Assembly: GCF_000756715.1 (NCBI RefSeq)
Contig: NZ_CCSE01000001.1
Location: forward strand, 1,456,001-1,520,000
DNA from: Jeotgalicoccus saudimassiliensis
GTDB lineage: Bacteria > Bacillota > Bacilli > Staphylococcales > Salinicoccaceae
DNA: 64,000 bases
Direction of reading: 5' to 3'
The notes under the pieces are model-generated. The model was not told the DNA's origin, did not search any database, and worked only from the letters and a program-made list of their open reading frames with translations. Shown here piece after piece: positions 39,517 through 44,096 of the stretch. Numbering within the stretch: the stretch's first letter is position 1; each line of letters begins with the position of its first letter. A program made the translations under genes and the position numbers.

Positions 39517-40923
39517 ATGTCTGGTGTAAATATAGAAAAATTGAATTTAAAATTTCCGGAAGCACCTGCCAAGCTTTTTAACGATTTAAATATTTATATC
39601 GAATCAGGGGAGAAAGTACTGCTGCTCGGACCGAGCGGTTCGGGAAAAAGTACGCTGCTGAATGTCATGGGCGGATTAATTCCCAATGTTATTCATACAC
39701 CGATGAAAGCTGAGATTCTCGATATTCCTGATGATAATGCTTATGTGTTTCAGGATCCTGATTCTCAGTTTACGATGCCGACTGTTGCAGAAGAACTCGC
39801 TTTTATATTAGAAAACAGAAGTATTCCAAAAGAAAATATGGAACCGATGATGCTGGATGCACTGAAGCAGACCCGACTCGATGTGCCTCTCGACTTAAAT
39901 ATTAATAACTTATCCGGCGGAATGAAGCAGAAGCTGTCTATCGCTTCCGCACTGCTGCAGAACCCAGATACACTGTTCCTGGATGAACCGACAAGTATGC
40001 TGGACGATGAATCCGCAGCTTCGTTGTGGAACGTTATTGAGCAGATTTGGGAAAAACGCACAGTAGTTATCGTTGAACATCGTGTTGATTATATTTGGGA
40101 TAAAGTCGACCGTGTCATTCTGATGAATGGCGCAGCACAGATTATCCACGAAGGTATACCCAATGACGTTTTAAGACATCACAAAGACCTTTTAAATGAA
40201 TACGGTGTCTGGCATCCGGAATCGTGGCAGAAGGCTCCTGTATACGCTCCGCTGTCACCTCAGGATGAAGTACTGCTGAAACTGAAAGACCTGCATCTTG
40301 AACGCCGGGGCATGGAGATTCTGCACGTTGATCATTTAAGTGTTGGAAAAGGGGAATGGATTACACTAGAAGGCAAAAATGGCACTGGTAAATCCAGCCT
40401 GCTGCTTGCGATTATGAAACTCATTCCGGCAGACGGCAGCATTTATTACCGAGGTAAAATAATTAAAAAGACCAAACACATTGCGGGAAACGTATATCCT
40501 GTTTTCCAAAATCCGGAACTGCAATTTATTACACATAAAGTATTCGATGAAATTTTTATCAATATGGAATCCCGTTTTGAATACACGGAGGCAGTGCGCC
40601 GGACAGAGGTTATTTTAAATCAGTTCGGGCTGAATAATATTGCCCATCTGCATCCGCTTGAAATTTCCACCGGCCAGAAAAGACGCTTAAGTGTTGCAAC
40701 AGCTCTCGGCGCTGTACCTGATGTGCTGCTGCTCGATGAGCCGACGTTCGGTCTCGATCAGAAATCAGCTTTTCGTATGCTCAGTATGTTTCATGAAATG
40801 ACCGCCGCTGGCACAACGATAATTATGATTACACATGATGAGAATATTAAAGAACGCTATCCGTTGAGACGGTTGATTATTGAAAATGGAACACTTCATG
40901 AGAAGAGGACAAATCATGCTTGA
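39517..40923 (+). CDS. ykoD: ECF transporter duplicated ATPase YkoD
   Basis: This 468-residue protein has two fused ABC domains. Domain 1 has GPSGSGKST, LSGGMKQKLSIA and LFLDEPTS. Domain 2 has GKNGTGKSS, a weaker signature ISTGQKRRLSVA and LLLDEPTFG. ATG 39517, with AAGGA seven bases upstream and two bases after the ykoE stop, is preferred over ATG 39502 and ATG 39475, which overlap ykoE. It powers the YkoE/YkoC complex. Confidence 0.93.
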   Translation: MSGVNIEKLNLKFPEAPAKLFNDLNIYIESGEKVLLLGPSGSGKSTLLNVMGGLIPNVIHTPMKAEILDIPDDNAYVFQDPDSQFTMPTVAEELAFILENRSIPKENMEPMMLDALKQTRLDVPLDLNINNLSGGMKQKLSIASALLQNPDTLFLDEPTSMLDDESAASLWNVIEQIWEKRTVVIVEHRVDYIWDKVDRVILMNGAAQIIHEGIPNDVLRHHKDLLNEYGVWHPESWQKAPVYAPLSPQDEVLLKLKDLHLERRGMEILHVDHLSVGKGEWITLEGKNGTGKSSLLLAIMKLIPADGSIYYRGKIIKKTKHIAGNVYPVFQNPELQFITHKVFDEIFINMESRFEYTEAVRRTEVILNQFGLNNIAHLHPLEISTGQKRRLSVATALGAVPDVLLLDEPTFGLDQKSAFRMLSMFHEMTAAGTTIIMITHDENIKERYPLRRLIIENGTLHEKRTNHA

Positions 40924-41707
40924 AACGATAAAGAATTACAGCACCTTTATAGATAAAGCGAATCCGCTGACGAAAATACTGCTCGCGGCAATACTTTTTG
41001 CCACAGTAATTTTCATTCATAATCCGAACGTCCTCTTTCATCTGACAATACTCATACTCATAACATTACTGTGCCTAAGCGGTGTTAAAATTAAATATCT
41101 CGCCATGCTGCTGATTTTCATATTTATTTCAGGGTTCATCTCAAGTCTCTATATGATATTTTACGGTGAAGGTACTGAAACACTGTTTCGCTACGGCATT
41201 ATTCATATTACTGAAGAAAGCTTTGTCAGGGGACTTCACATTACGATGCGCGGCGTTATTCTGTCGTTATTCGGTGCACTCGTTATATTTACGACGAAGA
41301 TTACCGATGTGTTTTACGCTTTGATGATTCAGCTTAAAGTGAAACCTAAATATGCCTATTCTTTTATGGCAGCGATACGAATGGTGCCGATTATTGTCTC
41401 CGAATACTTCCAGCTGAGACAGGCGAGAAAAGTGCGCAGTGCACTGATTAACAAAAAACATATTTCTGGATTTAAAGGCCTGAAATCAACGATTGTCACA
41501 TTGCTCAGCCAAAGTATCAGACGGGCATACAGACTCGGCATTGCTATGGAATCAAAAGGGTTCACAGACGGCAGCCGAACATATTATCACAGAACAACTT
41601 TCTCGAAATACGATTTATATTTACTGCTGATGATCGCTGCTGCAATATTTGCTGCCGTACAGCTTGGAGCAGTAATTTCTCCGTTCGAAAGTACTGATGC
41701 AAGATAA
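40916..41707 (+). CDS. ykoC: ECF transporter T component YkoC
   Basis: This 263-residue transmembrane coupling protein (EcfT family) has the cytoplasmic coupling motifs QARKVRSALI and ARG-like RRAYRLGIAMESKGF near the C-terminus. ATG 40916 overlaps the ATPase stop by eight bases (ATGCTTGA) with GAGGAC upstream; the longer frame from 40880 has no RBS. It ends exactly where the left half of the interrupted terminator begins. Confidence 0.92.
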   Translation: MLETIKNYSTFIDKANPLTKILLAAILFATVIFIHNPNVLFHLTILILITLLCLSGVKIKYLAMLLIFIFISGFISSLYMIFYGEGTETLFRYGIIHITEESFVRGLHITMRGVILSLFGALVIFTTKITDVFYALMIQLKVKPKYAYSFMAAIRMVPIIVSEYFQLRQARKVRSALINKKHISGFKGLKSTIVTLLSQSIRRAYRLGIAMESKGFTDGSRTYYHRTTFSKYDLYLLLMIAAAIFAAVQLGAVISPFESTDAR

Positions 41708-41730
41708 AAAAAGTCCGCTTAAAATGATGT

Positions 41731-41772
41731 GCACCCCTAAAGTTGAACTCCAAAATTCAACTTTAGGGGTGC
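41731..41772 (+). other. IS left-end hairpin enclosing the orfA ribosome binding site
   Basis: GCACCCCTAAAGTTGAA and its exact complement (17-bp stem) are separated by 8 bases. The right arm contains AGGGGTG, the RBS of orfA (ATG 41779), and is followed by TTTTATAT. A transcript entering from outside would fold this stem and hide the RBS or terminate. Confidence 0.8.
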
Positions 41773-41778
41773 TTTTAT

Positions 41779-42312
41779 ATGTATAGAAAACATTCAATCG
41801 ATTTCAAGATTAAAGTGGTGAATGAGTATTTAACGGGGAACAATGGCTTTAACAGACTGGAAAGTAAGTATGGTATTACCAGTAGTTTAATCCGTACATG
41901 GGTCAATCAATTCAATCAAAATGGTGTTCAAGGATTGACGGCAGGGATGACAAAATCCACTTATTCCAAGTCATTTAAACTCGAGGTCATACAGTACCGT
42001 CTCGAACATCATTTATCATACAGGGAAACAGCGAATGCTTTTGACATACCGAATCCCTCAATCATTGCTCAGTGGCAGAGTCGGTATCATCAATATGGTA
42101 TTCTGGGTTTAGAAACCCAACCGAAAGGCAGGCCGTCTAAACTGATGAATAAGAAACAATCCAGGAAGAAACGAAATGAAAGTCAGCCATTGAACGAAAC
42201 AGAACGTGAGGAACTGGAACGTTTAAGAATTGAGAACCGTAAGCTGGAGGTCGCCATTGCCCTGGAAAAAAAGTTACAATCCTTAGCTCGAGACAAACGA
42301 ACAAAGAAATAG
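41779..42312 (+). CDS. IS3-family transposase OrfA
   Basis: This 177-residue DNA-binding subunit has two helix-turn-helix segments, FKIKVVNEYLTGNNGFNRLE and FKLEVIQYRLEHHLSYRETA, the IS150-type duplicated HTH. A leucine-zipper-like coiled coil follows (ETEREELERLRIENRKLEVAIALEKK). Ribosomes reaching A-AAA-AAG (42267-42273) at codons 163-165 can slip to -1 and continue into orfB, giving the OrfAB transposase. Confidence 0.93.
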   Translation: MYRKHSIDFKIKVVNEYLTGNNGFNRLESKYGITSSLIRTWVNQFNQNGVQGLTAGMTKSTYSKSFKLEVIQYRLEHHLSYRETANAFDIPNPSIIAQWQSRYHQYGILGLETQPKGRPSKLMNKKQSRKKRNESQPLNETEREELERLRIENRKLEVAIALEKKLQSLARDKRTKK

Positions 42313-42317
42313 TCAGA

Positions 42318-43190
42318 GTGATCATAGAGTTAAGGAAAACAGGGCGCTATCAGCTGAAAGAACTGCTTGAGACCGCAAAAATCGCAAAAAGTGTATTTAA
42401 GTACTGGAATGACCGGCTACCGGAGCAGCACGATAAAGAGGCTGAAATCGTCGAATCCATCCAGACGATCGTGGCTGAAAGCAAAGGCAGATATGGCTAT
42501 CGTCGGGTCTGTTTGGCATTGAAAAATAAAGGGATGATAGTGAATCACAAGAAAGTGCTGCGTTTGATGCGGAAATATCAATTGCTTTGCGGTAAGTTTA
42601 AGCATAGAAACCGACAATACAAAGCATATAAAGGAAAAGTCGGTAAAATTGCTAAGAACAAACTGTCCCGCCGGTTTAAAACAGATCGTCCATATCAAAA
42701 AGTATTGACGGATATCACTCAGTTCAACATTCCAGCGTCCGGGGAGAAGCTTTACTTGTCGCCGTTCATGGATGCATTCAGCGGAGAGATTCTGTCTTGC
42801 AAAATCAATCGTTCACCCACACTGGATATCGCAATCGACCCTTTAATCGATTTGATTCAACAACGACCGATGTTGGACTATCGAATGACCGTCCACTCGG
42901 ATCAGGGCTGGCACTATCAGCATAGACAGTGGGTCAAATACCTTAAGAAGCATCAGACATTCCAAAGTATGTCGAGAAAAGGCAACTGTCTGGATAATTC
43001 TCCAATGGAGAATTTCTTCGGGCTGTTGAAACAGGAAATGTTTTATGGCCAACAGTTTACGACCTATACAGAACTGGAATCTGCGATTCATCAATATATC
43101 GCTTTCTATAACAATGATAGAATTAAAACAAAACTAAAAGGCATGTCCCCTGTCAATTACAGGAGACACACCTTTAATAAAATCGCTTAA
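42318..43190 (+). CDS. IS3-family transposase OrfB (DDE integrase)
   Basis: The 290-residue catalytic part has an N-terminal HTH_21 segment (ESKGRYGYRRVCLALKN), then an rve-type core with DDE residues in VLTDITQF, VHSDQGWHY and PMENFFGLLKQE, and the family tail FYNNDRIKTKLKGMSPVNYR. GTG 42318 is a possible independent start, but the frame is open back to the slip site at 42273, so the main product is probably the OrfAB fusion. No internal stop or frameshift is visible. Confidence 0.93.
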   Translation: MIIELRKTGRYQLKELLETAKIAKSVFKYWNDRLPEQHDKEAEIVESIQTIVAESKGRYGYRRVCLALKNKGMIVNHKKVLRLMRKYQLLCGKFKHRNRQYKAYKGKVGKIAKNKLSRRFKTDRPYQKVLTDITQFNIPASGEKLYLSPFMDAFSGEILSCKINRSPTLDIAIDPLIDLIQQRPMLDYRMTVHSDQGWHYQHRQWVKYLKKHQTFQSMSRKGNCLDNSPMENFFGLLKQEMFYGQQFTTYTELESAIHQYIAFYNNDRIKTKLKGMSPVNYRRHTFNKIA

Positions 43191-43247
43191 CCAAAAGTTC
43201 AACTTTTGGGGTTCACTTCAAAAATTAAGCGGACTTTTTTGTATTCA

Positions 43248-44096
43248 CTATTCTGCCGGAGTTCCCGGTTCAATGTCATATGATTTCTGTACTGTTTCGT
43301 TACGCTCGCCGAGACCGTCAGTTGTTTTCTTATCCCATACAGCCTGCTGTTTTTCTTTCAGCCCTGAAACCATCTTCTCAGGAATGACGTTGCGGTATTG
43401 CTTAGTCTCACCGAGTATGACTTTAATTGCCGGTTCCGTCACTTCGTGAGGGTCGAATTGTTCACTCGGGAATGCCGTTTTACTGTAATCAAATACCGTT
43501 TCACTGAGATCTGTCTCCCAGTTTTTCCACGTTTCAAATTCACGGTCATTAAATCCGGTTAAATAAGGTCCTGGATTAATCGTTGATACTTCCACATTGA
43601 ATTCCTGAAGCTCTTTACTCAATGCCAGTGCAAAGGCTTCTACAGTATGCTTGGAACCTGAATACGGGCCGGACAGCGGATTTGTTGTAATCCCTGATAC
43701 CGACGATACAAACACGATACGTCCGCTCTTATTCTCTACCATTTTACGGGCAAATCCTTTAGTTAAGAGTATCGGTCCAAAAACGTTAGCCTCGAACTGA
43801 TGGCGTAGATTCTCTTCCGGTATATCAACTAATGAACCGCCTTCTTTGACTGCAGCGTTATTCACCAGCACATCAATATCCCACGTCCATGCTTTCTCAC
43901 GGTCTTTAGCATTTGTTACGTCCAGTTTCTCAATCTGCATCGTCACACCGCGTTCGCGCGCTTCCTGCTCTAACGCTGAGACCTGCGACATCACTTCCAC
44001 CGTTGCAATCACCGGATTGCCTTTTTCCGCCAGTGCAAATGCAATATTTTTACCGAAGCCTGTTCCGGCACCTGTAATAAGAACTGTCTGAGTCAT
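43248..44096 (-). CDS. SDR-family oxidoreductase
   Basis: This 282-residue short-chain dehydrogenase has the cofactor motif TGAGTGFGKN, NNAA (VLVNNAAVKEGG), a catalytic Ser in VSSVSG and YSGSK near residue 147. The C-terminal 60 residues are longer than in minimal SDRs, with a final polar tail ending PGTPAE. The substrate is unknown. Its terminator was the hairpin now broken by the insertion sequence eight bases downstream. The RBS is AGGAGGG. Confidence 0.88.
   Translation of the reverse strand: MTQTVLITGAGTGFGKNIAFALAEKGNPVIATVEVMSQVSALEQEARERGVTMQIEKLDVTNAKDREKAWTWDIDVLVNNAAVKEGGSLVDIPEENLRHQFEANVFGPILLTKGFARKMVENKSGRIVFVSSVSGITTNPLSGPYSGSKHTVEAFALALSKELQEFNVEVSTINPGPYLTGFNDREFETWKNWETDLSETVFDYSKTAFPSEQFDPHEVTEPAIKVILGETKQYRNVIPEKMVSGLKEKQQAVWDKKTTDGLGERNETVQKSYDIEPGTPAE

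Follow-up and report, generated by a model that had tools for sequence, protein, structure and literature searches.

Within the window, the whole 64,000-nt stretch of Jeotgalicoccus saudimassiliensis DNA that was analysed, a gene for a CbiQ/YkoC-like ECF transporter T component (ykoC) faces a convergent short-chain dehydrogenase (SDR) gene, and an insertion sequence (IS) lies between them inside a split terminator (Table 1). This is the only full copy of the element in its 2.19-Mb genome. OrfB scores 288 bits against the NCBIfam IS3-family transposase model NF033516 (cut-off 160), and the element has the terminal repeats of that family, with TG/CA termini and 88% complementarity between its 25-nt ends. 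The D-to-E spacing of 35 in OrfB, together with an OrfA that carries a helix-turn-helix (HTH) domain, is that of an IS3-type transposase. The A7G run at 42266 sits in a 70-bp overlap of the OrfA and OrfB frames, and production of OrfAB by frameshifting is predicted. Plasmid matches include entries annotated as IS150 family, and the element is treated here as a candidate IS150-group member (IS150-like). A second IS3-like element of ~1680 bp, with an OrfB ~31% identical, is present in the same genome outside the window (G000:C1:1624159-1624953, L059); it likewise splits a terminator hairpin, as do the relatives' elements L046, L047, L048, L058, L060 and L063.

Table 1. Features of the insertion locus, in window coordinates (G008 is the nearest congener).
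Feature	Position	Strand	Basis
CbiQ/YkoC-like ECF transporter T component, upstream of the target	40880..41707	+	Pfam CbiQ 3.3e-25
Split terminator, left half (A-tract, stem, part of A loop)	41707..41724		16-nt perfect inverted repeat; intact in G008
Target duplication AAA, left copy	41722..41724		five-A loop at the IS-free G008 site
IS3-family, IS150-like insertion sequence, 1496 bp	41725..43220	+	25-nt inverted repeats; NF033516 transposase match
IS left-end inward terminator-like hairpin, 17-bp stem, then TTTT	41731..41772	+	fold -29.2 kcal/mol
OrfA, HTH protein	41779..42312	+	Pfam HTH_28 2.4e-22
A7G run, candidate slippery site for OrfA to OrfB frameshifting	42266..42273	+	sequence
OrfB, DD(35)E integrase-core transposase	42318..43190 (listed start; frame open from 42243)	+	Pfam rve, rve_2
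IS right-end inward terminator-like hairpin, then T-rich tail	43137..43175	-	fold -25.6 kcal/mol
Target duplication AAA, right copy	43221..43223		flank sequence and G008 site
Split terminator, right half (stem and T-tract)	43224..43240		16-nt inverted repeat; intact in G008
Convergent short-chain dehydrogenase (SDR) gene	43248..44096	-	Pfam adh_short 1.5e-39

The arms at 41707-41722 and 43225-43240 are 16 nt long, 100% complementary and 1502 nt apart, which bears out the first-pass annotation in placing the IS in the loop of a bidirectional terminator, between the two halves of a perfect 16-bp inverted repeat. The junction reads ...CTTAAAA^IS^AAAATTAAG..., and from the flanks alone a direct repeat of either 3 or 4 bp is possible. 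In the nearest congener, G008 (ykoC protein 97.8% identical, SDR protein 100% identical), the same place holds an uninterrupted, IS-free terminator with a loop of five A's. Because that five-A loop is the product of removing one AAA, the duplication is AAA, 3 bp in length. The earlier proposal that the joined flanks rebuild a terminator therefore stands, as G008 has it intact, while the single AAAA copy with which they were to be joined was off by one. The G008 site is the ancestral, pre-insertion state. An IS follows ykoC in 0/8 congeners and a convergent SDR gene lies next to the post-ykoC hairpin in 5/8; since all eight of these IS-free congeners fold a hairpin directly 3' of the ykoC stop, the hairpin at the target was not made by the IS.

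The expectation that IS-free relatives would carry the joined hairpin also held at a second site. For copy L173 (in G138), the IS-free relative G137 (L333) matches the full 800 bp of rejoined flank (98% identity) and has an uninterrupted hairpin at the insertion point, and L334, L335 and L338 align across the junction with a hairpin present there. For L199 (G051), no relative among the loci examined aligned across the junction; two of them (L325, L326) have a different hairpin nearby and five (L327-L331) have none. Likewise, 0/7 relatives examined for L267 (G448) aligned across the junction. Within the stretch inspected, L342 showed a clear terminator hairpin, L346 a weak stem whose loop is large, and the other five no hairpin.

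Relatives of the element were gathered from 33 genomes of the family, 157 of the order and 398 drawn from class Bacilli. The 173 candidate copies yielded 155 with both ends, in 62 genomes and at 154 distinct sites as defined by whole-site comparison (11-mer grouping merges sites that share only A/T runs). Those dropped were 11/94 candidates in the Staphylococcales set and 7/79 in the class set, of which one yielded no ends and six were discarded later. Most were truncated, second matches within one locus or unclear in their ends; outside Staphylococcales, 79 copies were examined of about 98 listed. For 6 Staphylococcales copies and 11 from the class set, the ends were shifted 5 bp by hand to restore outer bases that the automatic choice had missed. 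A direct repeat of 3 or 4 bp was found in 133/155 copies. A site was counted as a terminator loop when the rejoined flanks formed a stem enclosing the insertion (score at least 8, at least 3 G-C pairs, loop no longer than 26 nt) and either at least 5 of the 9 nt after the stem were T or at least 5 of the 9 before it were A. A stem search limited to loop offsets of at most 7 nt per side misses real hairpins, and a wider search was used.

By this measure the loop of a terminator-like hairpin was the target at 95/154 distinct sites across the 62 Bacilli genomes, with at least one such site in 46/61 genomes. Genomes with multiple copies had them in terminator loops of differing sequences: 9/9 in G016, 5/5 in each of G448 and G301, and 3/3 in each of G387, G409 and G469. 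With the two deviating genomes G067 and G071 set aside, the count is 91/132 distinct sites, so that the preference of related copies for terminator loops, which the first-pass annotation had suggested checking, is confirmed as non-random. Judged from these sites, the group very probably homes to terminators on insertion in many Bacilli. Two pairs of copies, L194/L195 (G057) and L197/L198 (G056), lie ~6 kb apart with one 3-bp repeat across the pair and look like a composite transposon in a terminator, in two species.

The remaining 59/154 distinct sites fell outside this definition, some of them being hairpins whose loops are larger or whose stems have fewer G-C pairs. The deviating genomes contributed terminator-loop sites at 4/15 (G067) and 0/7 (G071). 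Instead, 17/22 of their copies have TTAA upstream of the insertion, at a distance of 20 bp or in some cases 19 bp, against 4/133 elsewhere; the copies of these two genomes (L146-L160 in G067; L178-L181, L183, L185 and L187 in G071) are often in repeats and mostly without hairpins. Low counts were also obtained in G049 (1/6) and G069 (2/5), where copies lie in repeated palindromes. The six G049 copies (L207-L212) occupy one repeated palindrome at slightly shifted loop positions, and such shifts argue for structure over sequence.

The hairpin axis is the most frequent point of insertion. Among 88 duplication-bearing terminator sites, offsets from this axis had their mode at 0 (19/88), with a mean of -0.74 and a standard deviation of 6.63, and the base composition of 105 copies was A-rich ~10-20 bp to the left and T-rich at equal distance to the right. 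An orientation bias relative to the T-tract had been expected from flanks read by eye, and counting at one-sided terminators gave an even result (the T-tract was at the right IS end in 9 and the A-tract at the left end in 12). These observations bear on whether targeting is coupled to transcription, with the transposase meeting RNA polymerase paused at a terminator or a nascent RNA hairpin. Nearly all target hairpins are terminator-like, as such coupling would predict (96 of 97 are terminator loops), but it is at odds with the lack of orientation bias and with a preference for terminators that are symmetric: 69/83 targets (score at least 10) had an A-tract as well as a T-tract, against 50/132 terminator-like hairpins in the flanks. 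This preference points to a property of the DNA, and we regard transcription-coupled targeting as unlikely and do not favor it.

The palindromes recognized are arbitrary in sequence, which suggests that folded or symmetric DNA is what is read. Recognition by the transposase complex of folded (hairpin or cruciform) or two-fold symmetric DNA would be the likeliest way for this to occur, a step we infer with a confidence that is evenly balanced.

The IS itself carries terminator-like hairpins that face inward from both ends. The left-end hairpin is formed by the first 50 bp of the IS, with its left arm within the terminal inverted repeat, and the right-end hairpin lies inside the 3' end of orfB. 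The left-end hairpin occurs in 74/75 distinct left ends, with at least 5 T in the next 11 nt in 70 of them, and a right-end stem (score at least 10, followed by T's) in 78/81 distinct ends compared with 6/310 internal segments. Both hairpins covary. Changes on both sides were found in 13/17 pairs among 36 diverse left ends and in 14/17 pairs among 35 right ends, amounting over the 17 pairs to 69 and 81 cells, respectively, with a change on both sides. The covariation score was reached in 0/500 shuffles at either end, and sliding the partners lowered it from ~0.35 to at most 0.09.

The first-pass annotation had held that the insertion destroyed the terminator and that, unless hairpins of the IS compensated, transcription of ykoC and of the SDR gene would run on into the element. 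With the arms 1502 nt apart, a local hairpin can indeed no longer form. This consequence is not supported, however, given the conserved and covarying inward hairpins at both IS ends, and we consider read-through rather improbable. Probably, the IS replaces the host terminator with two inward-facing ones that it carries itself. Because such hairpins are found at both ends, are conserved in the family and covary, transcription arriving from either neighbor should stop just inside the IS.

Structures resembling the IS ends were also seen on their own. Palindromic mini-elements of ~40-55 bp (L085 at G026:C3:62222-62267, L092 and L102) consist of the IS left-end hairpin alone, with IS-like tips and 3-bp repeats, and are MITE-like derivatives; L085 and L092 lie inside terminator stems. 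Solo right-end-like hairpins without the rest of the IS occur at L112, L115, L116, L118 and L119, and some possibly serve as terminators.

Many copies are intergenic, where terminators are common, and terminators might be over-represented simply because near-random insertions survive between genes as the least harmful ones. Among the controls, random non-ORF positions in the same loci fell in a terminator-like loop in 237/4000 cases, random positions overall in 96/4650, and 569/6000 mismatched (shuffled) pairs of left and right flanks qualified. The difference between 95/154 and 237/4000 gives a Fisher p of ~3e-69, although copies that share a tree do not count as fully independent. In addition, the qualifying sites concentrate at the hairpin axis. 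IS256-family copies from the same order, which face similar selection, were in terminator loops in 0/16 cases (30 loci, ends found in 16; L354, L355 and L372 are doubtful by length or repeat). Since selection after random insertion explains neither the axis position nor the IS256 result, we regard it as very improbable. Distant IS3 copies, ~30% identical, proved unusable as a negative control: among 16 loci tried, 15 had ends, and 8/15 were themselves in terminator-like hairpins (7/8 of those with an inverted-repeat score above 9). Finally, no support was found for the flanking inverted repeat having been carried in by the element or made after insertion, and this is refuted by G008, which has the same palindrome without the IS, and by the other congeners, which have hairpins of other sequence there.

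Several known elements share parts of this behavior. IS1397, ISKpn1 and ISPsy8 belong to the IS3 family and target REP palindromes between genes, entering them on or close to the symmetry axis, and a 3-bp duplication is reported for ISPsy8 in the portion of the account available to us (PMC1525189). The Bacilli group is like them in family and in insertion at a palindrome axis between genes. IS1397-type elements use copies of one REP sequence, whereas the targets here are intrinsic terminators that differ from one another and carry A- and T-tracts; the 155 copies occupy 154 distinct sites rather than a single repeated palindrome, with G049, G069, G071 and part of G067 as exceptions. End terminators, predicted for the Bacilli group, are not mentioned for the three REP-targeting elements in that portion of the account (PMC1525189).

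IS1272/TnSha1, of the IS1182 family, is described in the available part of its report (PMC4923244) as inserting bluntly into terminator hairpins, whereby some of the stem is deleted and the target is not duplicated. The target class is thus partly shared, as both use terminator hairpins (PMC4923244), but unlike IS1272/TnSha1 as described there, the Bacilli group belongs to the IS3 family, inserts in the loop, makes a 3-bp duplication and keeps the full stem, with nothing deleted. On these partial accounts, the Bacilli group shares family and geometry with the REP-targeting IS3 elements and, in part, its target class with IS1272/TnSha1, and matches neither description.

E. coli IS150 is similar in family, in its IS ends (TGTACTGCACCC...GTACA) and in having 3-bp duplications at several of its sites. 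None of 17 E. coli IS150 loci lay in a terminator loop by our definition, many of them being the same hok-associated sites, and the stems at 13 loci showed no excess over flanks (mean 6.98 versus 7.68). Two E. coli IS150 left ends that were folded gave only a weak hairpin (-8.2 kcal/mol), unlike the Bacilli group. These loci (L378, L382-L397) are mostly near hok-type genes, and in several the insertion is preceded by GCCCC at a distance of ~18 nt and immediately followed by GAGGC, a recurring geometry of their own. IS1447 of Clostridium thermocellum is annotated to the IS150 subgroup and described for +1 transcriptional slippage (PMC6211511); it is likewise from the Firmicutes and is likened to the present group by description only, with no terminator targeting in the part of that description available (PMC6211511). 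A literature search outside subscription journals and ISfinder found no report of IS3-family targeting of intrinsic terminators, which is weak evidence of novelty.

Taking the copies as a group, we conclude that this IS150-like IS3 element very probably selects the loops of terminator palindromes and brings terminators of its own at its ends. Target choice, axis position, the 3-bp duplication, the ancestral IS-free site and the covarying end hairpins are apparent in the sequences themselves. In the proposed mechanism, the transposition machinery would select loops of intrinsic-terminator palindromes, preferring those that have an A-tract to their left and a T-tract to their right, and would make cuts staggered by 3 bp in the two strands, at or close to the symmetry center, giving a 3-bp duplication. 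The host terminator would be split and replaced by two inward-facing IS terminators, one per end. We infer that the end hairpins would terminate transcription, so that termination is probably kept on both sides, insertion would be nearly neutral and the transposase genes would be shielded from outside transcription. A broader reading, to which we give an even chance, is that a Bacilli IS3 clade homes to intrinsic terminators by DNA shape, not by sequence, and exchanges them for its own covarying, inward-facing pair, with the G067/G071 branch having moved to the TTAA rule.

If true, the preferred reading of terminator-loop selection with substitute end terminators would mean that a widespread mobile group occupies a near-neutral niche at the 3' ends of transcription units, where harm is avoided by the substitute terminators. 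It would explain the persistence of such elements between genes, would predict the landing places of new copies and would offer a simple system for studying how a transposase recognizes palindromes of unrelated sequence. Should homing by shape also hold, the clade would exchange terminators naturally and would serve as a test case for how an arbitrary palindrome is read by a DDE transposase.
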